Source: a virus. From it: DNA of 23,127 nucleotides. Position 1 is the stretch's first letter; the number at the start of each line of letters is the position of its first letter. Location of the stretch: positions 1 through 23,127 of the IMG/VR virus record IMGVR_UViG_3300032296_003868. One strand, given 5' to 3'. The notes beneath the pieces were generated by a model. That model searched no databases, was not told the DNA's origin, and saw nothing but the letters and a program-made list of their open reading frames with translations. Shown in pieces: positions 1-19,056 of this stretch. The translations under genes were made by a program, and so were the position numbers.

Positions 1-660
1 AACACAGGTGAATTAACAATTGAAGATGCAATTAAAAAAGAATTTGGAGATGTCAAATTATCAGATGAGCAAATGAAAATAATTATGGATCCAAATTCAT
101 CTGGAGTTGATGTTCAAAACGCCATAAATAGTGCGATGGGATTAGAAGCATATTCAAAAAAGGATGTATCACAGGACCTTTCACAAATAGCAACACCAAG
201 TGAAACTCCAAAAGTAGAGGATATTTCACAAATAGCAACACCAAGTGAAACTCCAAAAGTAGAGGATATTTCACAAATAGCAACACCAAAAACTGATGCA
301 GTTAGTGCAAATTCATTTTTAGGATTTACTCCACAATATGTTGATGTCAATGATATTAAACCTGAAACAATTTCTTATGAACCTGAAACATTGCTTCCAA
401 AACAATTTAATATACTACCACCTAGTCCAGCCCAACAAAGTTTAGAGGATGTTGGAATTGTTGGTGAACGCGAAATAGTAAGTTCTACTACAAATTATGT
501 CAGTACAGAATCTAATGGTTCTGCAAATAGTAGTACAGCGGCAATTAAGCAAATGAGTAATGTTTTAGAGATGTATGCAAATAGACCTGTAATTGTTCAA
601 ATAGGTGGAACTGAATTAAAATCCTTTAATAAAAGTTTGAAAGTCTATAATAATGCGTAA
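1..660 (+). CDS. Tail protein, C-terminal part (possibly the end of the tape measure protein)
   Basis: The reading frame is open from the first base, so the gene almost certainly starts upstream; the ATG at 73 is an internal methionine. The visible part (about 219 residues) is polar, rich in Ser, Thr, Pro and Asn, and looks low in complexity. It contains 2.5 copies of a 15-residue repeat (core SQIATPSETPKVED) encoded by the 45-base tandem repeat at 175-288. The last 30 residues are better ordered and include RPVIVQIGGTELKSF, resembling the short 'V-V-x-I-x-G' beta segment that often ends phage tape measure proteins. The next gene looks like a tail-tube initiator. In T4 the tape measure gene 29 is followed by 48 and 54, so the order also favours a tape measure. 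The function is inferred from context and a weak motif; it could be another tail or structural protein. Truncated by the window edge. Confidence 0.45.
   Translation, partial: NTGELTIEDAIKKEFGDVKLSDEQMKIIMDPNSSGVDVQNAINSAMGLEAYSKKDVSQDLSQIATPSETPKVEDISQIATPSETPKVEDISQIATPKTDAVSANSFLGFTPQYVDVNDIKPETISYEPETLLPKQFNILPPSPAQQSLEDVGIVGEREIVSSTTNYVSTESNGSANSSTAAIKQMSNVLEMYANRPVIVQIGGTELKSFNKSLKVYNNA
175..288 (+). repeat. 45-base in-frame tandem repeat, 2.5 copies
   Basis: Units lie at 175-219, 220-264 and a partial unit at 265-288. Units 1 and 2 differ only at their first few bases (gacctt versus gatatt); the partial third unit matches the second exactly. The period is divisible by three, so copy-number change keeps the reading frame. 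The repeat codes for a Pro/Thr/Ser-rich linker in the tail protein, and its near identity suggests a recent duplication. Confidence 0.95.
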
Positions 661-3561: not shown

Positions 3562-4125
3562 ATGGCTGCAGCACCTGTATATCCCATATCAAAAATAAAA
3601 ACCGCGCAATACACGCGTGGAAACGAATTTATTATTGATAACACTGACCAATCTGAATATATTGGATTATATCATATTTTACCGAATGATGAATACTGGA
3701 CAGAACCATCTCCAAATGATAAGTCAGTTAAATTACTGAAACGACAATCAAAAGTTTCGGATGATGTGAAATTATATAGAAAAATAAATAATTTACCTCC
3801 AACAAATTATCTCGACCCAATCAGTTATTATCCAATATTAAAGACAGATGATTATCGATTAGGTTATATAATGCGATGCTTTGTTCAAAAAAGAAACAAT
3901 CCTTATCTGACAATACAAGAAATAACTCCGCAGCAATTTAATACAATTAATTCAATTAATAAACAAGGCATAAACGCATTGACTTGGAATTCAGTTGAAA
4001 TTAAATGGACGATAAAAGGCGTCTATGCACAAATGCTAAATTCTAAAGAAATATATAATGCAGAGCAGCGTGGATTTATAAATCTTTCGAATTTTTTAAA
4101 AAATACTTTGGAATTTTGGAAATAA
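3562..4125 (+). CDS. Unrecognised tail/baseplate-region protein
   Basis: A 187-residue soluble protein beginning 3 bases after the hub gene. The N-terminal half is rich in Tyr, Pro and Asp (for example PVYPISKIKTAQYTRGNEFI and NNLPPTNYLDPISYYPIL). The C-terminal half has the order MRCFVQKRNNP, a strand, then VEIKWTIKGVYAQM, and closes with a predicted helix RGFINLSNFLKNTLEFWK. The C-terminal segment looks like a structural protein that packs against a partner, but I cannot assign it to a T4 gene. Its tight spacing with the hub gene and its place at the end of the tail group argue for a virion role; this is inference only. No membrane segment, cysteine motif or enzyme motif is seen. Confidence 0.6.
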   Translation: MAAAPVYPISKIKTAQYTRGNEFIIDNTDQSEYIGLYHILPNDEYWTEPSPNDKSVKLLKRQSKVSDDVKLYRKINNLPPTNYLDPISYYPILKTDDYRLGYIMRCFVQKRNNPYLTIQEITPQQFNTINSINKQGINALTWNSVEIKWTIKGVYAQMLNSKEIYNAEQRGFINLSNFLKNTLEFWK

Positions 4126-4140
4126 TTGTTATATTTGTGC

Positions 4141-5460
4141 ATGGTTTTTTATGCGCAATATTTTGATATTGATTGGGTAAGTATATCTAATGATACCTTG
4201 TTAGTTATACCTATACTATCAGATGTGCAAAAACATCGATGTGAAAATACAATAAGTTTTGTTTATATTTATAATTTCGATACAGAAGAAGAATTCATAA
4301 TAGGTTGTAATCACAATGACATAGAAAAAAATGGTTGTGAATGGATATCTCAAGTTACTTGGGGGAATAATGTATTTTCATATAAAAATGCGATACTGAA
4401 GGACTATGGGGTCAATACATGGGATATTGATTTGTGTTATTGGTTGCAATTTAATATGCCTATGGAAATTCAACTATCTGAAGATATAATTTCATATCAT
4501 AGATGGTATCGAACTATAAACAATGTAAATGATATTGTACCAATAGTGGTTTATGTTGAATATTGTCAAAATATTGTTGAGAACTTTAAAGAATGTTTAT
4601 TAGATATTGAATTTGATAATTCTCTTAAATTTTACAATAATACTGTATTAGAAAATTTCAGACAAATAGAAAATTATGGAATTCCTATAAATTCGGAAAT
4701 ATTAAATAAATTTTTCAATAAAAAGGCTGATTGTTTGTATTCACAATATTTTCCGTACACGACAACTGGTAGACCAAGTAATAGATTCGGGGGTATAAAT
4801 TTTGCAGCATTGGATAAAAATACCGGTGTTAGAGAAATGATACAAGTTAAAAATAAAAATGAATATCTTGTAGAATTCGATTATGACAGCCATCATGTAA
4901 GATTAGTCGCTAAAATCATTGGGTACGATTTACCCGAAGGTAATTTGCATCAATATTTTGGTAGGCAATATTTTAACACGCCAATATTAAATCAGGAGCA
5001 GTATTTAGAATCAAAAAATATAACATTTAAAATGTTATATGGTAATATTTTGACAGAGTATTCTAATATTGATTTTTTTAAAATGGTTCATGAATACAGA
5101 AAAGATTTGTGGGAAAATTTTAAAAAATTCGGATTTATAGAAACTCCCTTAACCAAACGCAAATTATATTATAAAAATTTTGATGGCATGGCGTCAAATA
5201 AATTATTTAATTATATTTTGCAAGGATATGAAACTGATGTCAATTCTATAATGTTAAGCAGAATTTTGAAATATTTATATAAAAAGAAAAGTAAATTAAT
5301 ATTGTATACATATGATTCGTTTCTATTTGTATATGATACGCGAGATGGAAATGAATTTATAAATGAAATACTTGAACTATTAAATAATTATGGAATGAAG
5401 ACAAGTTTTAAATTTGGCAAGCAATATAATAAATTGATGAAACCAAAAATTGAAACATGA
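4141..5460 (+). CDS. Divergent family A (Pol I-like) DNA polymerase, short form
   Basis: A 439-residue protein with the Klenow-type layout. Residues 80-105 (VFSYKNAILKDYGV...WDIDLCYWL) resemble a 3'-5' exonuclease region with its catalytic acid replaced. Residues 160-192 (FYNNTVLENFRQIENYGIPI) match the thumb start of Pol I. TTTGRPSN at 207-214 corresponds to 'TGRLSS'. Motif A is FDYDSHHVR with Asp247. Motif B/O-helix is EQYLESKNITFKMLYG with Lys292, Phe296, Tyr300 and Gly301 in Pol I spacing. LQGYETDVNSIM follows at 360-371. Motif C is YTYDS with Asp392. Both metal-binding aspartates are kept. Unusual features: His252 at the Glu steric-gate position, Tyr288 where Pol I has the dNTP-binding Arg754, and Ser after the motif C Asp. 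An in-frame TTG at 4126 would add five residues; I prefer ATG 4141. The gene sits at the end of the tail group, far from the family B polymerase gene. Confidence 0.85.
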   Translation: MVFYAQYFDIDWVSISNDTLLVIPILSDVQKHRCENTISFVYIYNFDTEEEFIIGCNHNDIEKNGCEWISQVTWGNNVFSYKNAILKDYGVNTWDIDLCYWLQFNMPMEIQLSEDIISYHRWYRTINNVNDIVPIVVYVEYCQNIVENFKECLLDIEFDNSLKFYNNTVLENFRQIENYGIPINSEILNKFFNKKADCLYSQYFPYTTTGRPSNRFGGINFAALDKNTGVREMIQVKNKNEYLVEFDYDSHHVRLVAKIIGYDLPEGNLHQYFGRQYFNTPILNQEQYLESKNITFKMLYGNILTEYSNIDFFKMVHEYRKDLWENFKKFGFIETPLTKRKLYYKNFDGMASNKLFNYILQGYETDVNSIMLSRILKYLYKKKSKLILYTYDSFLFVYDTRDGNEFINEILELLNNYGMKTSFKFGKQYNKLMKPKIET

Positions 5461-5481: not shown

Positions 5482-5871
5482 ATGAAAACAAACTTACTAT
5501 GCACGTTTGTACATAAAAATGATTTGCAATTGATACTAGATCTTATACAAAAAACGTATCAATTAGATTCAAATTTGATTTTTATATTAAGTAATACGGA
5601 AAGACCATATCAGTACTATTGCACATATAACGTGATAGGAAATTATGAGTTGTCATCTAATACAATACTCATACATAGAAAATCAGATACAAATACATTA
5701 TATACTATTAATGCAATGAATGAAATAATCAAGAAAGTGAATAATGGTGTTTTAGATACCAAGTATCAACTTGATTGGGACAATTATAAAAATTCGATGT
5801 TATTAATTCAGAATGATGAGGTTATAAGAATCAATCTGAAATTGGAAAAGATTTTTAAAATACAACGATAA
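5482..5871 (+). CDS. Small protein of unknown function downstream of the Pol A-like gene
   Basis: A 129-residue protein starting 21 bases after the polymerase stop and probably co-transcribed with it. It begins with an alternating hydrophobic strand (KTNLLCTFVHKND), then a helix (LQLILDLIQKTY), then the segment PYQYYCTYNVIGNYE and a strand TILIHRKSDTNTLYTINAMNEIIKK, and ends in LDWDNYKNSMLLIQND plus a basic tail (LEKIFKIQR). No signal peptide, membrane segment or known catalytic motif is visible. The alternation of strands and helices suggests a compact alpha/beta domain. Position directly behind the polymerase suggests a shared role or regulation, but this is inference. The stop codon lies 12 bases from the end of the convergent ferritin gene. 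Confidence 0.65.
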   Translation: MKTNLLCTFVHKNDLQLILDLIQKTYQLDSNLIFILSNTERPYQYYCTYNVIGNYELSSNTILIHRKSDTNTLYTINAMNEIIKKVNNGVLDTKYQLDWDNYKNSMLLIQNDEVIRINLKLEKIFKIQR

Positions 5872-5896
5872 AAAAATGGGTGTTAACCACCCATTT
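5870..5896 (-). terminator. Intrinsic terminator of the ferritin cassette, overlapping the ferritin stop codon
   Basis: On the plus strand, aaatgggtg (5874-5882) and cacccattt (5888-5896) form a perfect 9-base inverted repeat around a 5-base loop. Read on the minus strand, the hairpin ends in a run of seven T (5876-5870), which is the form of an intrinsic terminator for the minus-strand genes. One arm is made of the last ferritin codons (Met-Gly-Gly) and the stop codon lies in the loop. On the plus strand no T-run follows, so it is less convincing for the convergent gene. Confidence 0.75.
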
Positions 5897-6371
5897 CATT
5901 ATCTAATAATCTTAAAGCAATCTTATCATTTCCAAATGCTTTCAATCTATCTACCCAAAATGTAGTTTTAGCAATTTCATCTACTTGTTCTTTCAAAAAC
6001 TTTTGAGCAAGATTTAAAGTCATATAATCACCTTCACTTTGAGCTTCACGAGCAAACTCTTGACATTGTGCAGTGATTTTCAATTCATGCTTATATGAAT
6101 CGACTATAATTGTTGGTAAACCTTGAAAATCAGTTTGAGGTTGATCCAATTTAGGAACTTTAGGTAATATGTTCAAATCAGCCAAATACTCATAAGACCA
6201 CTTTGCATGACCTAATTCTTCATCAGAATATGATTTCCATAGTTTAGCAGCACCTGCATAACCATTTAGATCTAACCATACACTCATTGCTAAATATAAT
6301 CTTGAAGACATTTCTTCTTGTTCAATTCTAAAATTAACAAGATCAATCATTTTGTTACTTATTACAGCCAT
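5883..6371 (-). CDS. ftnA: Ferritin (FtnA-type, non-haem)
   Basis: A 162-residue bacterial ferritin of usual length. It aligns end to end with E. coli FtnA with an offset of two residues: all ferroxidase ligands are present, namely Glu19, Glu52, His55, Glu96, Gln129 and Glu132, plus Tyr26. The four-helix order is clear (SSRLYLAMSVWLD, SYSDEELGHAKWSYEYL, DSYKHELKITAQCQEFA, FLKEQVDEIAKTTFW). Ferritins form 24-subunit shells that oxidise Fe(II) and store it as ferric mineral in the cytoplasm. A good ribosome binding site (AAGGAA, 6378-6383) lies just upstream. It is the last gene of a three-gene minus-strand cassette, 12 bases after the preceding stop, and ends inside a terminator hairpin. A host-derived metabolic gene is the simplest reading: iron storage or protection from oxidative damage during infection. 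Confidence 0.95.
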   Translation of the reverse strand: MAVISNKMIDLVNFRIEQEEMSSRLYLAMSVWLDLNGYAGAAKLWKSYSDEELGHAKWSYEYLADLNILPKVPKLDQPQTDFQGLPTIIVDSYKHELKITAQCQEFAREAQSEGDYMTLNLAQKFLKEQVDEIAKTTFWVDRLKAFGNDKIALRLLDNEMGG

Positions 6372-6377
6372 TTTGTT

Positions 6378-6383
6378 TCCTTT
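6378..6383 (-). promoter_or_regulatory. Ribosome binding site of the ferritin gene
   Basis: On the minus strand the sequence AAGGAA lies six bases before the ferritin ATG, inside the 12-base gap after the preceding stop codon. It supports the chosen start. Most other genes in the window lack such a site. Confidence 0.6.
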
Positions 6384-6650
6384 TTATTTTTTAGAAATGA
6401 AGTATTTTGCAAGATAATCTAAATTGGTAATGATATCTGTTAACTTCTTTTTTTCATTTGGGCCTAAATCTTCATCCCGTAAATACGCAGATAATACAGC
6501 TTTTGCGCCATTTACAAATTGATACGGATTATCTGCGTTTACAGTATAACCTTCATTGATATTGTTATTGAAATTTCTTTTAATTTCTTCTCGAATTAAT
6601 TGTTTCAAGTGCATAATTTTGTTGTTTTTTGTTTGCATTTCAATTTCCAT
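6384..6650 (-). CDS. Small protein of unknown function in the ferritin cassette
   Basis: An 88-residue, mostly helical protein. The chosen start follows the upstream stop codon by one base, which suggests translational coupling. A second possible start (Met13) would give a protein beginning MHLKQLIREEIKRNF, an amphipathic basic helix seen at the N-terminus of many T4-like phage proteins of marine origin. This is a recollection of a pattern, not a family assignment. The middle has a conserved-looking turn (NPYQFVNGAKAVLSAYL), then an acidic/basic segment and a C-terminal helix (LTDIITNLDYLAKYF). No cysteine or membrane segment is visible. Its role in the cassette is unknown. Confidence 0.6.
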   Translation of the reverse strand: MEIEMQTKNNKIMHLKQLIREEIKRNFNNNINEGYTVNADNPYQFVNGAKAVLSAYLRDEDLGPNEKKKLTDIITNLDYLAKYFISKK

Positions 6651-6651
6651 T

Positions 6652-6930
6652 TTATTTTTTACTTTGTATTTTGGGCATAAACCAGTTTGAACACCATTTT
6701 GAAGGATCTTTTATTGGTTCACCATTATAATCAACTAATTCTGCAGGATTTTCTAAATCTGGGAATTTTTCTAAAACATATTCTTGATAATGGTTGTTTG
6801 AACACATGTGTTTACCATCTTCAATATAATGGTATTTACATACATGGCAACCAAAACCTATAGGTGAAAACATATATGGTGGATATTCATGCCCTTCAGA
6901 TTCATTTAAAAATTCAAGCCGTTTTATCAT
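6652..6930 (-). CDS. Four-cysteine protein, possible iron-sulfur or zinc binder
   Basis: A 92-residue protein and the first gene of the minus-strand cassette that ends with ferritin. It has exactly four cysteines, Cys28, Cys31, Cys43 and Cys80, in the order CHVCKYHY, HMCSNNHY, KWCSNWF. The arrangement C-x2-C-x-Tyr, a third Cys and a final 'W-C-x-x-W' resembles high-potential iron-sulfur proteins (C-x2-C-x-F/Y ... C ... GWC-x-x-W), although the distance between the third and fourth cysteines is larger than usual. A zinc knuckle is the alternative. No export signal is visible. The pairing with ferritin makes an iron-related function attractive, but this is inference. The ATG at 6930 is about 10 bases downstream of the expected start of the candidate late promoter. 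Confidence 0.7.
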   Translation of the reverse strand: MIKRLEFLNESEGHEYPPYMFSPIGFGCHVCKYHYIEDGKHMCSNNHYQEYVLEKFPDLENPAELVDYNGEPIKDPSKWCSNWFMPKIQSKK

Positions 6931-7012: not shown

Positions 7013-7043
7013 TTTGACATTTACAAAAGCTTATTTATCTTTG
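7013..7043 (+). promoter_or_regulatory. Bacteroidota-type (primary sigma) promoter of gp32
   Basis: A -33 box TTTG at 7013-7016 and a -7 box TATCTTTG at 7036-7043 (consensus TAnnTTTG) are separated by exactly 19 bases, the spacing of the Bacteroides sigma-ABfr promoter. Transcription would start near 7050, about 28 bases before the gp32 ATG. This is the best promoter in the window and the main support for a Bacteroidota host. It would allow host RNA polymerase to transcribe the gp32-uvsX replication genes early. Confidence 0.75.
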
Positions 7044-7077: not shown

Positions 7078-7872
7078 ATGGATTTAAGTAAAATCAGGGA
7101 ACGATTGGATTCGTTCAACAAGCAATCAAAGCCATCGGGCTCAAAGAGAATCTGGAAACCTCAACCAGGTCAACAAGTTGTAAGAATTGTGCCATATATC
7201 CACAATAGAGATTGGCCATTTTTGGAACTTTATTTTTATTATGACCTTGGTAAACGTACCATTATTGCGCCTCAAAACCTAGGAGAACCAGACCCTGTTC
7301 AAGAATTAGCTGACAAACTGAAAGCTACCGGTGAAAAGGAAGATTGGTTATTGGCAAAGAAAATTGAACCAAAAATGCGAACCTATGTACCAATTTTAGT
7401 TAGAGGATTGGAACACGAAGGAGTTAAATTTTGGGGTTTCGGTAAAACTGTGTACGAAGAATTGTTGAAAACAATTGATGACCCAGATTATGGTGACATT
7501 ACAGATTTGAAAACAGGTTCTGATATTACAATTGAATACGAACAGCCAAAAGATGGTTATCCTAAAACTTCATTTAGAGTTAAACGAAGTCAATCTCCTG
7601 CAACAACCGACCCAGCAGTTTTACAGTTATTGAAAGAAATGCCAACAATTCGTGATATTTGGGAAGTACCATCATACGATGAATTAGCAAGACTATTGGA
7701 TAATTTCATCAATAATACAGAAGATGAAACTGTAGATTCTAAAGTTTCTAATACTGAAGAAACTGAAGATACTGAACTACCTTCGGATTTTTATTCATCT
7801 GATATCAAATCAGATAGACGCGTTTCAGCGACATCTGATATAGATGCTGCGTTTGACGAAATGTTTGCATAA
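7078..7872 (+). CDS. 32: Single-stranded DNA-binding protein gp32
   Basis: A 264-residue protein of the T4 gp32 family. Recognisable parts are the basic N-terminus (residues 1-25, for cooperative binding), the start of the core (WKPQPGQQVVRIVPY, about 26-40), the core segment KMRTYVPILVRGLEHEGVKFWGFGKTVYE (about 100-125), DYGDITDLKTGSDI (about 138-151), and a long acidic C-terminal tail ending DIDAAFDEMFA, which in T4 recruits other replication proteins. T4 gp32 (301 residues) holds a zinc ion with one His and three Cys. Here there is no cysteine at all: at the matching place (residues 64-76) the sequence reads APQNLGEPDPVQE, where related proteins have 'CP...CPxC'. The protein coats single-stranded DNA in replication and recombination. 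uvsX follows after 2 bases, in the same transcript from the promoter at 7013-7043. Confidence 0.9.
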   Translation: MDLSKIRERLDSFNKQSKPSGSKRIWKPQPGQQVVRIVPYIHNRDWPFLELYFYYDLGKRTIIAPQNLGEPDPVQELADKLKATGEKEDWLLAKKIEPKMRTYVPILVRGLEHEGVKFWGFGKTVYEELLKTIDDPDYGDITDLKTGSDITIEYEQPKDGYPKTSFRVKRSQSPATTDPAVLQLLKEMPTIRDIWEVPSYDELARLLDNFINNTEDETVDSKVSNTEETEDTELPSDFYSSDIKSDRRVSATSDIDAAFDEMFA

Positions 7873-7874
7873 TT

Positions 7875-9107
7875 ATGGCAAAGAAAATAGAGACTGAAAC
7901 AGTTGACAATTTGGCAAGTGAGCTTGTTTCTTCATTGAATAGTAAATTCACACATTCAATAGATAAAGCAGCATATTTTTTATCAGATCCTGATGTAGTT
8001 GCTGATATTAAAAAATGGGTACCGACAGGTTGTGACATGTTAGATTTAGCAATCGCAAATAGACCTAACGCAGGCTGGCCTGTTGGTAGAATCATTGAGA
8101 TTACAGGATTAGAAGCATCTGGTAAATCATTGTTGGCTGCGTATGCGTTGAAAAGCACGCAACAGAAAGGTGGATTGGCTATTTACATTGATACTGAAGC
8201 AGCAACGAGCCGAGAATACTTACAAGCAATTGGTGTTGATATTGAAAAGATGGTATATATTCCATTGGAAGCATTGGAAGATATTTTTGATTCAATTGAA
8301 GCAACAATTGCAAAGGTTAGAAAGGCGAATAAAGATGTATTAGTTACAATTGTAGTCGATTCAATTATGGGAGCTACTACAAAGAAGGAGTTAGAAGGAG
8401 AGCATGGTAAAGATGGATATGCAACTGAAAAGGCAATTGTATTGTCAAAGGCGATGCGTAAAATTACAAACATGTTAGCAAGACAAAATATATGTTTGAT
8501 TCTTACAAATCAGTTGCGTATTAGAATGGGAGTGTCGTTTGGCGACCCCTACTCAACATCAGGTGGTAAAGCAGTTGCATTTCACTCATCTGTCAGAATT
8601 AGATTGAAATCATTAGGTCAAATTAAAATGAAACTTAATGGTGTCGAGCAAGTAATTGGAATTAAAACGAGAGCAATTGTTCAGAAAAACAGGTTAGGCC
8701 CACCATTGAAATCTGTTGATTATGACATCTATTTTGAATCCGGTATTGATAATTATGGCAGTTGGCTTGAAACATTGAAGACGTACAAGTTAGTAACATC
8801 TGGAACATATTGGTCCATGCCATTGTCTTATACAAGCATTTTGCAAACAAACGATAAAGGCAAGGGTATTGAAAAATCTTTTAATGATGAACTTGTTAAT
8901 CCAGAATCTGGTGAAATCAAAAAAACAGACGGAACCTTAAAATTCAGAAGTAAAGATTTCGGTAAATGGATGGAAGCAAATCCTAAATTGAAAGAATTTA
9001 TATATGATATGATATGTGATAGAGTGATTATGGTGTATAAAGTCAATGAAGATTTTGGAATTGATGATATTATAGTTGATGAGGATTTTATTTCAGAAGA
9101 TGATTAA
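7875..9107 (+). CDS. uvsX: UvsX/RecA-like recombinase
   Basis: A 410-residue strand-exchange ATPase, close in length to T4 UvsX (391). Walker A is GLEASGKS (residues 78-85). The segment IYIDTEAATSREYLQAIGVD (about 104-123) carries the conserved Glu of RecA proteins. Walker B is VTIVVDSI (157-164). The DNA-binding loop region contains TNQLRIRMGVSFGDPYSTSGGKAV (211-234), with the Asn-Gln pair typical of the family. It forms filaments on single-stranded DNA and starts recombination-dependent replication, working with gp32, encoded directly upstream. Two bases separate it from gp32, so they are surely co-transcribed. The C-terminal 60 residues are acidic (ends DEDFISEDD), as in other UvsX proteins. 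Confidence 0.93.
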   Translation: MAKKIETETVDNLASELVSSLNSKFTHSIDKAAYFLSDPDVVADIKKWVPTGCDMLDLAIANRPNAGWPVGRIIEITGLEASGKSLLAAYALKSTQQKGGLAIYIDTEAATSREYLQAIGVDIEKMVYIPLEALEDIFDSIEATIAKVRKANKDVLVTIVVDSIMGATTKKELEGEHGKDGYATEKAIVLSKAMRKITNMLARQNICLILTNQLRIRMGVSFGDPYSTSGGKAVAFHSSVRIRLKSLGQIKMKLNGVEQVIGIKTRAIVQKNRLGPPLKSVDYDIYFESGIDNYGSWLETLKTYKLVTSGTYWSMPLSYTSILQTNDKGKGIEKSFNDELVNPESGEIKKTDGTLKFRSKDFGKWMEANPKLKEFIYDMICDRVIMVYKVNEDFGIDDIIVDEDFISEDD

Positions 9108-9481: not shown

Positions 9482-10525
9482 ATGAACAGACTCCAAGAAG
9501 TATGGAAATCATTTGCAGATGAATTGGGAACTCCGAGAGAAAAGGATGACCATGTTTTAATCATTGATGGATTAAATACATTTATCAGAGTATTTAGCGC
9601 AGTTCCCGCATTGAACGATGATGGAATGCATGTTGGAGGGGTAATAGGTTTTTTAAAATCAGTAGGTGCGAATATCCGTCAGTTTCAGGCAACGCGCTGT
9701 ATAGTTGTGTTTGATGGGACTGGCGGATCACAGCGCCGACGAAAATTGTATCCTGATTATAAAGCAAATCGTAAAAATAAAACAAAATTAAATCGTTACG
9801 AGGAATTTGCAGATTTAGTTGATGAACAAAAATCAATGAAACAGCAGTTTTCAAGGTTAGTTGAATATTTTGATACACTTCCTTTAACAGTAATTTCGAT
9901 TGATAATATTGAAGCAGATGATGTTATTGCATACATTACTAAACAATATTATGCGAATAAAGGCAATAGAATTACAATAGTTTCATCAGATAGAGATTTC
10001 ATACAACTGACAAATGACAGAGTACGAATTTGGAGCCCAACTAAAAAAATTTTATATACTACAGAAAAAGTTAAAGAAGAATTTGGAATATTGCCAGAAA
10101 ATTATTTACTTTACAGGATAATGTCTGGCGATACATCTGATAACATACCTGGAATTGAAGGTATGGGATTAAAAACTCTTATAAAACGATTTCCTAAAAT
10201 TACGGATTTCCCATGTAGTTTTGATGATATTTTATCTGAATCAAAAATTTGTGTGGATAATGGGCAAAAAATTAAAATTTTCAATCAAATATTGGATAAT
10301 CAGCATATATTGGATAGAAATTATAAGTTAATGCAATTAACAGAGGTTGATATTTCACCGACAAGTATGCTAAATATTTGTCAAAAAATCGATTCTGAAA
10401 TTAATAAATTGAATAGTAGACAATTTAAAAAGTTATTTACAGAGGACAAATTGTATGCTAACATAAAGGATTGCGATAGATGGTTAAGAGACACTTTTTA
10501 TAGATTGAATACTTATGCGAGATAA
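9482..10525 (+). CDS. rnh: 5'-3' exonuclease of the FEN / T4 RNase H family
   Basis: A 347-residue metal-dependent 5' nuclease, close to T4 RNase H in length (305). Conserved acids are in order: Asp29 in LIIDGLN, Asp78 in VVFDGTGGSQRRRKLYPDYK (with the basic stretch that grips the DNA), Glu144/Asp146/Asp147 in IEADDVIAYI, Asp170/Asp172 in VSSDRDFIQL, and Asp217/Asp220 in MSGDTSDNIPG. The helix-three-turn-helix GIEGMGLKTLIKRF (225-238) follows. The enzyme removes RNA primers and short flaps from lagging-strand fragments. The family A polymerase of this phage has no such domain, so this protein supplies the activity separately, as in T4. Its end overlaps the helicase gene by 11 bases, a sign of coupled translation. 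Confidence 0.9.
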   Translation: MNRLQEVWKSFADELGTPREKDDHVLIIDGLNTFIRVFSAVPALNDDGMHVGGVIGFLKSVGANIRQFQATRCIVVFDGTGGSQRRRKLYPDYKANRKNKTKLNRYEEFADLVDEQKSMKQQFSRLVEYFDTLPLTVISIDNIEADDVIAYITKQYYANKGNRITIVSSDRDFIQLTNDRVRIWSPTKKILYTTEKVKEEFGILPENYLLYRIMSGDTSDNIPGIEGMGLKTLIKRFPKITDFPCSFDDILSESKICVDNGQKIKIFNQILDNQHILDRNYKLMQLTEVDISPTSMLNICQKIDSEINKLNSRQFKKLFTEDKLYANIKDCDRWLRDTFYRLNTYAR

Positions 10526-11903
10526 AAACTTATCAGGATTTGGATTTAAATTCCAAGCAAAAATAATTTCATGTATAATGACCGATGCGACATTCGTCAG
10601 TCAAATATATGATTTACTTAAAACTGAATATTTTGATAGTGAATCAATAAAGTTTTTGGCAGACAGGTCATTAGAATACTTTAAAAAACATAAAAAGATT
10701 CCCACTATTGATGTATTAAAAGTTTTTATTGATGGAGTTGAAGACAAATTACTTAAACAAGAAATTGTCAATACATTAAAAGAGGCAGTAAAATCTGCAA
10801 CTGCGAGTGATTTAGATTTTATAAAAGAAACCACTCTCGATTTTTGTAAAAACCAAGAACTTAAATCAGCTATATTAGAATCAGTTCAATTGTTAAAAAC
10901 TGGTGATTATGATTCAATAAAAAATATTATTGATAGTGCACTAAAAATTGGAATGAATTCTGATATTGGTATGGATTATCTCGAAAATGTTGAAATTCGT
11001 TACCAAGAAGATTCGAGACACCCTCTATCAACAGGATGGAATGTCATCGATGAAATTACAAAGGGTGGGTTGGCAGCGGGAGAATTAGGTGTAGCCATAG
11101 CCCCATCAGGTGCAGGAAAGTCTTGGTTATTATCTTCTTTAGGAGCAAACGCATTAAAACAAGGTAAAACTGTCGTACATTATTCATTAGAATTGAGTGA
11201 GAATTATACAGGTTTGAGATATGATTGCATATTGACTGGAATAAGTTTAGATAAGATTCATCTGCATGTTGATAAAGTAAAAGAAACTTTGGGGCAAATT
11301 CCTGGCAAATTAATTATTAAATGGTTTCCAACAAAGTCTGTATCGTTGATGGGATTACGATCGCATCTTACAAAGCTCAAAATGTTGGGTACAGAACCTG
11401 ATTTAGTCATTATTGACTATGCTGATTTGTTAAAATTTGGTAATAGTAAAATGGCCAAACATGAAATATTAGAAGCATTATACGAAGATTTACGAGGGTT
11501 TGCAGGAGAAAATAAAATTCCTATTTGGACAGTGTCACAATCAAATAGGGAGGGATTAAATGATGATATTATTGAGGCAGATAAAGCTGCAGGAGCATAT
11601 GCAAAAATATTCCCAGCGGACTTTGTTATGTCATTATCAAGAAAGGCTCAAGACAAATTATCAAATACTGCAAGATTGCACATAATTAAAAATAGATTTG
11701 GGGTGGATGGTGTGACATTTCCTGTATATATGGATACATCAAGAGGTGTCATTAATGTGCATTCTGAAACAAGTTCAAAAGGTAAAGAGGTATCAAACAC
11801 AATGACAACTGATTCTGAATATAATCGTCAACGATTGAAACAACGAATGAGTCAATTAAACGAAAAAGTTAATGAAAATTCAAAGTCAAATCATTTATTT
11901 TAA
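10515..11903 (+). CDS. 41: Replicative DNA helicase, gp41/DnaB-like
   Basis: A 462-residue protein matching T4 gp41 (475) in length. The N-terminal helical domain (residues 1-150) is followed by the RecA-like motor: STGWNVIDEITKGGLAAGELGVAIAP (172-197), Walker A APSGAGKS (196-203), the glutamate-bearing strand VVHYSLELSE (220-229), Walker B DLVIIDYADLL (296-306), and the motif WTVSQSNREG. The C-terminus has the strand HIIKNRFGVDGVTFPVYMD, typical of DnaB motif H4. It acts as a hexamer moving 5'-3' on the lagging-strand template. No primase gene is seen in the window. The start overlaps the 5' nuclease gene by 11 bases. Confidence 0.9.
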   Translation: MRDKNLSGFGFKFQAKIISCIMTDATFVSQIYDLLKTEYFDSESIKFLADRSLEYFKKHKKIPTIDVLKVFIDGVEDKLLKQEIVNTLKEAVKSATASDLDFIKETTLDFCKNQELKSAILESVQLLKTGDYDSIKNIIDSALKIGMNSDIGMDYLENVEIRYQEDSRHPLSTGWNVIDEITKGGLAAGELGVAIAPSGAGKSWLLSSLGANALKQGKTVVHYSLELSENYTGLRYDCILTGISLDKIHLHVDKVKETLGQIPGKLIIKWFPTKSVSLMGLRSHLTKLKMLGTEPDLVIIDYADLLKFGNSKMAKHEILEALYEDLRGFAGENKIPIWTVSQSNREGLNDDIIEADKAAGAYAKIFPADFVMSLSRKAQDKLSNTARLHIIKNRFGVDGVTFPVYMDTSRGVINVHSETSSKGKEVSNTMTTDSEYNRQRLKQRMSQLNEKVNENSKSNHLF

Positions 11904-16425: not shown

Positions 16426-19056
16426 ATGTATAGAAGCATTTTTTATGATGAAAAAAAGAATAAAATTCATTTATGGGGTGATGGTGACCACGATGACAAT
16501 GGATATAACACATATGAATATTCGCCATATGCATATTTAATTGACCAAAATGGCGAGCATCAAACCATAGATGGGTTCAAATGTAAAAAAGTATCATCGT
16601 GGTCAGATGATGCAGTTAAAATGGGATTGGTTTATGAGCATAATGTATCACCCACGACTAGATTTTTAATTGACAAATATGCTGAATCCGATGAAATTTC
16701 CAAGTCAAATAAAATATTGTACTTGGATATAGAAGTTGCAAAAGAAGAACGATATAGTTCGCCTGCAGATGCAAATAATACAGTTACAGCTATAACTTAT
16801 TATGCAACTGGAGATACTGAATATACGTGTCTACTTTTGGATAGTAAGCGTAAATCAAGTACGTATTCTACTGAAATAGAAATACAGACAAAGTCTGAAA
16901 ATAAAAAAGTTGCAGCAAATATTGTAACATATACAAGTGAGCATCAATTATTAAGAGCATTTATGATGCAATATCAAAAAATTGGTCATAATGTTATTAC
17001 TGGATGGAATGTTGAATTTTTTGATATGCCATATTTGTATAACAGAATACTTAAACTTTTCGATTATGATATGGTGAATATGTTTAGTCCAGATGCTAAA
17101 ATTGTACGTAAGAAATACGTTAATTCTGGCGAATTAGTATATATCGCAGGAATTACCATTTTAGATTATCTAAATTTATACAAGAAATTTACGTATACAG
17201 AACAATCAAATTATAGATTGAACACGATTGCCAATTTTGAATTAGGTAGAGGTAAGGTAGAATATGAAGGCGATTTGGATCATTTATACAATACTGATAT
17301 TGTAAAATTTGCTGAATACAATATTATAGACGTTGAATTGGTAGTGTCATTAGATGAAAAAATGGAATTGGTTATGACTGCGTTGGGGCTATGCCATAAA
17401 GGTCATTGTGCTCATAGTGACATTCAATATACAAGCGCATATTTAGATGGTGCAGCATTGACATATTGCAGAAGGAATAATCTTGTAGCGTCAGCAAATA
17501 AGTCACAGCGAGATGAACCTGCACAAGGTGCATTTGTAAAAAAGCCCAATCCTGGATTATATAAATGGGTATATGACTTGGATTTGACGAGCCTGTACCC
17601 AATGAATATGATTACTTTAAATATTTCACCTGAAACTAAATTTTCAAAAGTAATCAATTGGGATGAAGAACAATATGGCAAAGGAGCGAATATTGAATAT
17701 GAAATTGAAGTATATCGTGATAATACAATAGCAGGTGAATTTGATGACTTTTTCAAACCTACAAAACCTAAAAATTTTAAAATAAAAGGTTCTGATGCAC
17801 TAAAGAAATATTTACTTGATAATAATCTTTCAATAGCATCAAATGGAGTCACGTACACAATGGATAAAACAGGAGTAATTCCTGCAATTTTGAAAATGTG
17901 GTTTGATGATAGAAAAACATTTAAAGATTTAAGAAAGCGAGCGGAAAAAGACGGCGATTTGGCATTAGCAGCTGCCTATGATAGGAAGCAATTAATTACT
18001 AAAATTCTGTTAAATTCTTTTTATGGAGTATTGTTACTACCATCATTCAGATTTTATGATAAGGCAAATGGTGAAGCAGTAACATTGACAGGGCAATCTG
18101 TTATTCAATGGGCAACAAAAGCAGCGGATTTTTTTTATAATAAAGAGTTGGGTACAAAAGGTGTGAATTATTGCATATATACTGATACGGATTCAATCTT
18201 TGAGCCACTTGAACCATTATTTGTTCACAGGTTTGGTTCAATGGAACAATATAATGATGACGAAATAATAAGCAAATGCAAAGAAATAATCAATGATGTA
18301 CAAACATGGGTAAACAATTCATATTCAGCATATGCAAAGAGATATCATAATGTTAATGAGCATAGATGGGATATTAAGCAGGAATTGATAGCAAAGCGTG
18401 CATTTTGGGTTGGGGCAGTAAATGATAAAACAGGTGATGTTGAAGGTGTAAAAAAACGTTATGCACAATGGATTGTTGATAAGGAAGGGCATAAGGTTAA
18501 TCATATGGATGTAAAAGGTTTGGATGTTGTTAGATCAAGTTTTCCTGCAAAGTTTAGAGAGTTTATGAATTCAGTTCTGCATGATATTTTACATGATGCC
18601 ACCAAGGATGAAATGAATGAAAAGGTTAGACAGTTTAAATCAAAAATGAACACATATGATATTTTAGATATAATGTTACCAACTGGAGTAAAGGATGTTG
18701 AAAAATGGAAAACAGATAAATTTGGGCAAAGATTGAAAGGGACACCTGTACATGTCAAAGCGGCAATGAATTATAATGATGTTTTGAAATTTACGAAAAA
18801 TGAAAGTGTACCTGAAATTTCAGATGGTGATAAAATCCTATGGGCATACATGAAACAAAACAAATACAATTTCGATACAATGGCATTGAAAGGTTTTGAA
18901 GATCCTGAATCTATTATGAGGTTTGTTTCTGATTATATCGATAGGGATGAAATTTTTGAAAGTTCACTAAAATCTAAATTAACAAATTTTTGGATTTCAT
19001 TGGGATGGGGAGAGATAGTGATTAACAATTTAAGTAATAAATTTTTTAAATTATAA
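16426..19056 (+). CDS. 43: Family B DNA polymerase gp43
   Basis: An 876-residue replicative polymerase, close to T4 gp43 (898) in length. The 3'-5' proofreading site is intact: Exo I LDIEVA (Asp101, Glu103), Exo II GWNVEFFD (Asp200) and Exo III YNIIDVEL (Tyr298, Asp302). Polymerase motifs are also intact: motif A YDLDLTSLYP (Asp386), motif B KILLNSFYG (Lys526, Asn530, Tyr533, Gly534) and motif C YTDTDS (Asp587, Asp589). The C-terminal end (SNKFFKL) is short and hydrophobic-basic, in keeping with a clamp-binding tail. It copies the phage genome with gp45, encoded next. There is no sign of splitting, intein or intron. Starts 6 bases after the MazG-like gene, so probably in the same transcript. 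Confidence 0.95.
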   Translation: MYRSIFYDEKKNKIHLWGDGDHDDNGYNTYEYSPYAYLIDQNGEHQTIDGFKCKKVSSWSDDAVKMGLVYEHNVSPTTRFLIDKYAESDEISKSNKILYLDIEVAKEERYSSPADANNTVTAITYYATGDTEYTCLLLDSKRKSSTYSTEIEIQTKSENKKVAANIVTYTSEHQLLRAFMMQYQKIGHNVITGWNVEFFDMPYLYNRILKLFDYDMVNMFSPDAKIVRKKYVNSGELVYIAGITILDYLNLYKKFTYTEQSNYRLNTIANFELGRGKVEYEGDLDHLYNTDIVKFAEYNIIDVELVVSLDEKMELVMTALGLCHKGHCAHSDIQYTSAYLDGAALTYCRRNNLVASANKSQRDEPAQGAFVKKPNPGLYKWVYDLDLTSLYPMNMITLNISPETKFSKVINWDEEQYGKGANIEYEIEVYRDNTIAGEFDDFFKPTKPKNFKIKGSDALKKYLLDNNLSIASNGVTYTMDKTGVIPAILKMWFDDRKTFKDLRKRAEKDGDLALAAAYDRKQLITKILLNSFYGVLLLPSFRFYDKANGEAVTLTGQSVIQWATKAADFFYNKELGTKGVNYCIYTDTDSIFEPLEPLFVHRFGSMEQYNDDEIISKCKEIINDVQTWVNNSYSAYAKRYHNVNEHRWDIKQELIAKRAFWVGAVNDKTGDVEGVKKRYAQWIVDKEGHKVNHMDVKGLDVVRSSFPAKFREFMNSVLHDILHDATKDEMNEKVRQFKSKMNTYDILDIMLPTGVKDVEKWKTDKFGQRLKGTPVHVKAAMNYNDVLKFTKNESVPEISDGDKILWAYMKQNKYNFDTMALKGFEDPESIMRFVSDYIDRDEIFESSLKSKLTNFWISLGWGEIVINNLSNKFFKL

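Follow-up and report, generated by a model that had tools for sequence, protein, structure and literature searches.

By its sequence and predicted fold, the protein of 439 residues encoded at positions 4141-5460 (plus strand) of the window, the whole 23,127-base IMG/VR fragment studied here, is a divergent family A DNA polymerase and belongs to divPolA1, a kind of phage enzyme that is already known. It probably serves as an accessory, exonuclease-dead polymerase beside the replicative one, engaged in short-patch synthesis together with the replication proteins.

Pfam DNA_pol_A matches the protein with E = 2.4e-7 and 30.5 bits, slightly below the curated cut-off of 34.3, and PHROG phrog_17 (DNA polymerase) does so with E = 2.8e-11. 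A phmmer search against PDB sequences returned no polymerase, only a chance match at 0.14, so that a fold search was needed. The AlphaFold2 model, built from an alignment of 45 sequences comprising the window and IMG/VR loci only, is confident (pLDDT 92.9, pTM 0.90); its top PDB match is the Klenow fragment (E = 1.2e-17, TM 0.75 by query length), 190 PDB matches fall at E <= 0.001, and the palm and fingers fold of Pol I is present. When the family profile is aligned to E. coli Pol I, motifs A, B, Q and C come into register, and chance can be ruled out since the catalytic residues are kept in 83-84 of 84 relatives. An earlier note on this DNA had proposed that the phage has, in addition to its complete gp43-type enzyme, another polymerase that belongs to family A, with a Pol A profile search and a structure prediction as checks; both bear the proposal out, and all residues that it named (TTTGRPSN 207-214, Asp247, Lys292, Phe296, Tyr300, Gly301, Gln361 and Asp392) were read correctly. 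The start codon is taken to be the ATG, which fits both the N-terminus of the family and a promoter-like element discussed below better than does the in-frame TTG at 4126.

The name divPolA1 was given by Yutin et al. (2024, Virol J 21:200; PMC11348598), who reported 14 phages, 155-190 kb in size, that encode the enzyme in addition to a regular polymerase (family A, B or C), and described replication genes downstream, an active palm, a truncated thumb and an inactivated exonuclease, all three exonuclease Asp residues being replaced in their superposition; their reading places its role in replication (PMC11348598). Our literature search found no further paper using the name beyond the authors' own preprint. 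We assign the window protein to this family because of its homology, its context and its co-occurrence with a regular polymerase: the product of gene 1 of phage immuto is homologous (tblastn E 1e-37, 32% over 90%), replication genes in conserved order follow downstream, and gp43 is encoded at 16426-19056. Among 50,697 phage records, tblastn found six carriers, namely four immuto records, Microcystis phage Mel-JY01 and LR756508, a 484-kb uncultured phage. The family is common in environmental phages: a scan of viral contigs with a single sequence gave no match, one with a four-sequence alignment gave hundreds, amounting to at least 578 IMG/VR loci, the best 80 of which were kept. Complete members are mostly 420-465 residues long, and the window polymerase has a new sequence, which comes closest to L014 (70%) and clusters with L014-L017 with full support. 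Cellular genomes yielded 4 matches in 84,980, all in contigs of MAGs or environmental bins, two of them Bacteroidota; these were taken as binned phage, and a cellular origin was rejected.

The active site is conserved throughout the family. In the TTTGRPSN segment (4759-4782, plus strand, as are the following motifs) T209, R211, P212 and N214 are invariant (84/84); motif A, DYDSHHVR (4879-4902, residues 247-254), keeps D247 and H252 in 84/84 and R254 in 83/84; motif B, K292-F296-Y300-G301 (5014-5043), aligns to K758/F762/Y766/G767; Q361 and E364 of the Q361-x-x-E364-T365 segment (5221-5235, the Q849 region) are invariant in 84/84; and motif C, Tyr391-Asp392-Ser393 (5311-5319), corresponds to H881-D882-E883 of E. 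coli, with Y391 and D392 in 83/83 and Ser or Ala at position 393. Phe296 and Gly301 likewise do not vary among the 84 members, and Asp392 is found in all 83 with data. In E. coli Pol I numbering, D705 is thus D247, E710 is H252, R754 is Y288, K758 is K292, F762 is F296, Y766 is Y300, Q849 is Q361, H881 is Y391, D882 is D392 and E883 is S393. The motif A Asp, the motif B Lys and Tyr-Gly and the motif C Asp are accordingly present in 83-84 of 84 relatives.

The changes at E710, R754 and H881 could alter or lower dNTP synthesis and, together with that at E883 and an apparently reduced thumb, would suit a polymerase that has lost catalysis and is retained to bind DNA as a structural or regulatory subunit. 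This we hold to be very improbable: the pair of metal-binding Asp residues, Lys292, Phe296, Tyr300 and Gln361 are almost invariant in relatives down to about 27% identity, and Yutin et al. likewise took the palm to be active on the basis of its structure (PMC11348598). The residues typical of canonical enzymes, Glu at the E710 position and His-Asp at motif C, are absent, with His in 84/84 and Tyr-Asp in 83/83 instead; as Glu and His characterise canonical members and do not define the fold, we narrow the claim to a divergent subfamily of family A. Ser in place of E883 was rejected as a novelty, Twort and Tt72 also having Ser.

The missing E710 steric gate raises the question of a ribonucleotide-tolerant polymerase that would synthesise or extend RNA or mixed primers, since the invariant His stands where the enzymes of E. 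coli and T7, that of Twort and the canonical Pol A of immuto all have Glu. T7-type RNA polymerases arose from family A, which speaks for such an activity, as does the Asp-Ser of motif C, found also in T7 RNA polymerase. As reported in PMC9324360, with reference to Astatke 1998, E710 is the side chain by which Pol I excludes ribonucleotides, and it is described there as strictly conserved. We nevertheless regard ribonucleotide tolerance as improbable: the bulky His may itself exclude the 2'-OH, Phe296 and Tyr300, which DNA polymerases have, are retained, the DNA polymerases of Twort and Tt72 also show Asp-Ser, the nearest folds are DNA polymerases, and a separate primase exists, as described below.

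The N-terminal exonuclease-like domain lies inside the Klenow fold match, and the few acidic residues conserved there in the alignment of relatives form no DxE..D..D pattern; the 3'-5' exonuclease domain appears to be degenerate and proofreading-dead. From this domain to TTTGR the model has about 55 residues, where Klenow, by its known numbering, has about 147, and the thumb appears, in the model, to be much reduced. An enzyme without proofreading, its exonuclease published as inactivated (PMC11348598) and lacking a conserved pattern of exonuclease acids, with a remodelled nucleotide pocket and with UvsX and SSB encoded nearby, might also be a low-fidelity translesion or recombination-linked repair polymerase, which reads through damaged templates or elongates D-loops formed by UvsX. 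We consider this unlikely, though worth keeping in mind; polA is near-universal in the clade, which argues against it, and so does the promoter evidence given below.

An accessory status of divPolA1 follows from its company, because every carrier record of at least 91 kb has another polymerase. In the window this is a T4-type family B replicative polymerase, gp43 (16426-19056, plus strand; phrog_262 5e-175, PF00136 3e-31), which is of full length, phrog_262 covering residues 7-870 of 876 with 585 bits. A separate replicative polymerase is present in 10/10 carrier records of at least 91 kb; it is of family B in 7/7 long IMG/VR carrier records, in Mel-JY01 and in LR756508, and immuto has a canonical family A enzyme beside divPolA1, without family B. 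To judge from these genomes, divPolA1 is accessory whatever the family of the main enzyme, and it probably has a separate job, as the earlier note had suggested for the second polymerase. In the jumbo phage LR756508 the family B Pfam matches are divided between one reading frame at 260-262 kb and another at 266.6 kb, and the gene is possibly split. Separate primases are present in immuto and in the two carrier genomes G001 and G004 (the Toprim_4 profile alone missed primases of carrier phages), and a primase role for divPolA1 was rejected on this ground.

The gene sits at the seam of the tail and replication modules, before the genes for orf129, SSB, UvsX, the exonuclease and gp41 in almost every relative; the following counts include only loci whose flank is long enough, and the genes given with coordinates are on the plus strand. 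Directly upstream of polA lies a conserved gene of the tail or baseplate region (3562-4125, 187 aa), with a homologue in 62/65 loci, and the hub gene is kept in 54/54. Downstream follow orf129 (5482-5871), a small conserved protein and candidate partner (43/43), a gp32-like ssDNA-binding protein (7078-7872; 36/37, and annotated as SSB in immuto), a UvsX/RecA recombinase identified by profile matches (7875-9107; 29/30), a 5'-3' exonuclease resembling the Pol I 5' nuclease or RNase H (9482-10525; PF02739 1.3e-35, 23/25) and a gp41/DnaB-type helicase (10515-11903; phrog_19 2e-75, 23/25). Among the 50,697 phage records orf129 is confined to the same six as polA, and it is found in 14 of 15 long carrier records, the contig of the fifteenth ending shortly after polA. 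Its AlphaFold model is confident; a fold search against the PDB gave no match at E <= 0.001. The family invariants of orf129 are C7, H65-R66-K67, N71-T72-x-Y74-T75-x-N77, N80 and W99. Common descent of one phage group alone could account for both the orf129 pairing and the conserved neighbourhood.

Between orf129 and SSB the window carries a minus-strand block (5883-6930) made up of two small ORFs and a gene whose product resembles ferritin (PF00210, 6.6e-22), and in three other loci (L021, L060, L064) a ferritin homologue stands on the plus strand between polA and orf129. The gap between these two genes ranges from -4 to 3629 bases, and the seam from polA through orf129 to SSB looks, from its gene content, like a cargo site. 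Further to the left, near-identical tandem repeats (SQIATPSETPKVEDI) occupy window positions 115-290, within an ORF that is cut off at the left end and precedes the tail tube gene.

From the place of the gene behind the tail genes, the earlier note had argued for a different time of expression. This argument is not supported, as the gene stands at the seam before the replication genes and has a promoter-like element of its own, shared with gp41 and with replication and nucleotide genes and not with tail genes. The element, TTTG-N19-TATATTTG of the Bacteroidota sigma-A type, lies at 4107-4137 (plus strand), 3 nt before the ATG of polA, and a similar one, TTTG-N19-TATCTTTG, is found ahead of SSB at 7013-7043 (plus strand); the flavobacterial sigma-A -7 box is TAnnTTTG (PMC9723704). 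The full consensus TTTG-N17-21-TANNTTTG occurs four times in the window against 1.9 expected, a number reached by 12 of 100 shuffles, and its two plus-strand matches stand precisely ahead of polA and of SSB. By itself the window does not reach significance, and the strength of the signal comes from the sequences of the relatives: TTG-N18-24-TAWWWT-N3-11-ATG precedes polA in 39 of 53 non-redundant relatives (1.7 expected by dinucleotide shuffling) and gp41 in 18 of 27 (1.0 expected), against 3/190 for four tail genes combined (Fisher p = 1e-29 and 6e-17, respectively). Before the gp41 gene of the window the element was not seen in this form. The T4 late promoter TATAAATA gives no signal in the window (6 against 6.1 expected), and a generic sigma-70 scan of the window found no excess. 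The -33 part of the polA element overlaps the 3' end of the upstream gene, and the element would give a leaderless mRNA, a type uncommon in flavobacteria (5.5%; PMC9723704).

In the genomes G001 and G004 the element is carried by 7/187 and 11/203 genes, respectively. They include polA, gp41, the primase gene (in one genome), an endonuclease gene that immediately precedes polB, and the genes for dUTPase, GTP cyclohydrolase and QueD; all genes of the two that are annotated as head or tail genes lack it. As a side observation, genes of replication, nucleotides and DNA modification in both genomes (L110-L126) form a small set that resembles a regulon, with the same leaderless promoter-like element. 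From these patterns, polA appears to be expressed with the replication genes, not with the tail genes. That the element is common to gp41, primase and nucleotide genes points to routine replication and away from translesion synthesis or repair, as does the absence of its leaderless form before most UvsX (3/45) and SSB (0/48) genes of the relatives.

From the Pol I fold, the conserved active site, the companion polymerase, the gene order and the shared element we infer a timing, a substrate and a partner for this accessory polymerase. It would be made at replication time and synthesise DNA in short, distributive steps where the DNA is coated with SSB; its most likely task would be to extend RNA primers or to fill gaps after the phage 5' nuclease has removed primers, as in a split Pol I whose polymerase and 5' nuclease are separate neighbour genes. 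Possibly it also primes from UvsX strand-invasion ends; it would then pass the DNA to gp43 or leave a nick for ligase, and orf129 may make up for the apparently reduced thumb by helping to grip the DNA. A bolder version, to which we give little credence, would make divPolA1 and orf129 an obligate two-part enzyme with a His gate, a counterpart of DNA polymerase alpha which extends primers with ribo- and deoxynucleotides, cooperates with the separate primase and then yields to the replicative polymerase, whatever its family.

The host of the window phage is likely a member of Bacteroidota, because immuto grows on Flavobacterium, two of the four MAG contigs are Bacteroidota, and the promoter is of that type; the host of Mel-JY01 is a cyanobacterium. 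In immuto, DpdA, QueD/QueE/QueF-type and FolE genes at 21300-71000 (L127) make up a 7-deazaguanine DNA modification set, and QueC is seen in L002. A second polymerase kept across a large group of environmental phages would mean that synthesis is split between two enzymes, as in eukaryotes and archaea, in contrast to T4, which relies on gp43 alone. New here are the at least 578 IMG/VR loci, the separate polymerase in 10/10 long carriers, the His at E710 in 84/84, the 43/43 pairing with orf129 and the promoter-like element common to polA and gp41. The invariant His252 and the fixed partner orf129 offer two simple features for the bench, and with immuto, a Flavobacterium phage that is in culture, the question can already be put to the test.

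Among known systems, T7 RNA polymerase shares the family A-related palm and the Asp-Ser of motif C, but has Gly at the E710 place and Met at that of Phe296, and is not a top fold match. Klenow is the best PDB match over the whole chain, with the four motifs in register; at about 13% identity, the window enzyme differs at E710 (His), at R754 and H881 (both Tyr) and at E883 (Ser), and apparently also by the loss of the exonuclease acids and by a reduced thumb. The divPolA2 of barbaviruses, likewise a divergent family A enzyme that comes in addition to a polymerase of family B, by its published description has an unrelated N-terminal domain and a variable gene neighbourhood (PMC11348598). The T4-like phage RM378, cited in the earlier note as a family A precedent, is none: its whole record has no PF00476 match, and it carries a family B polymerase, apparently split into exonuclease and polymerase genes, with the polymerase domain at 79977-81137 and p024 resembling, by eye, the exonuclease domain. 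The true precedent is divPolA1 in immuto and its relatives, where gene 1 of immuto is homologous along the chain (about 30% identity, equal length), has the same downstream neighbours and is likewise a companion to a regular polymerase; the inactive exonuclease and reduced thumb published for divPolA1 (PMC11348598) probably apply to the window protein as well. None of its differences speaks against membership; the window copy differs in that the ferritin-bearing minus-strand insert follows it, an arrangement peculiar to this locus among those compared.
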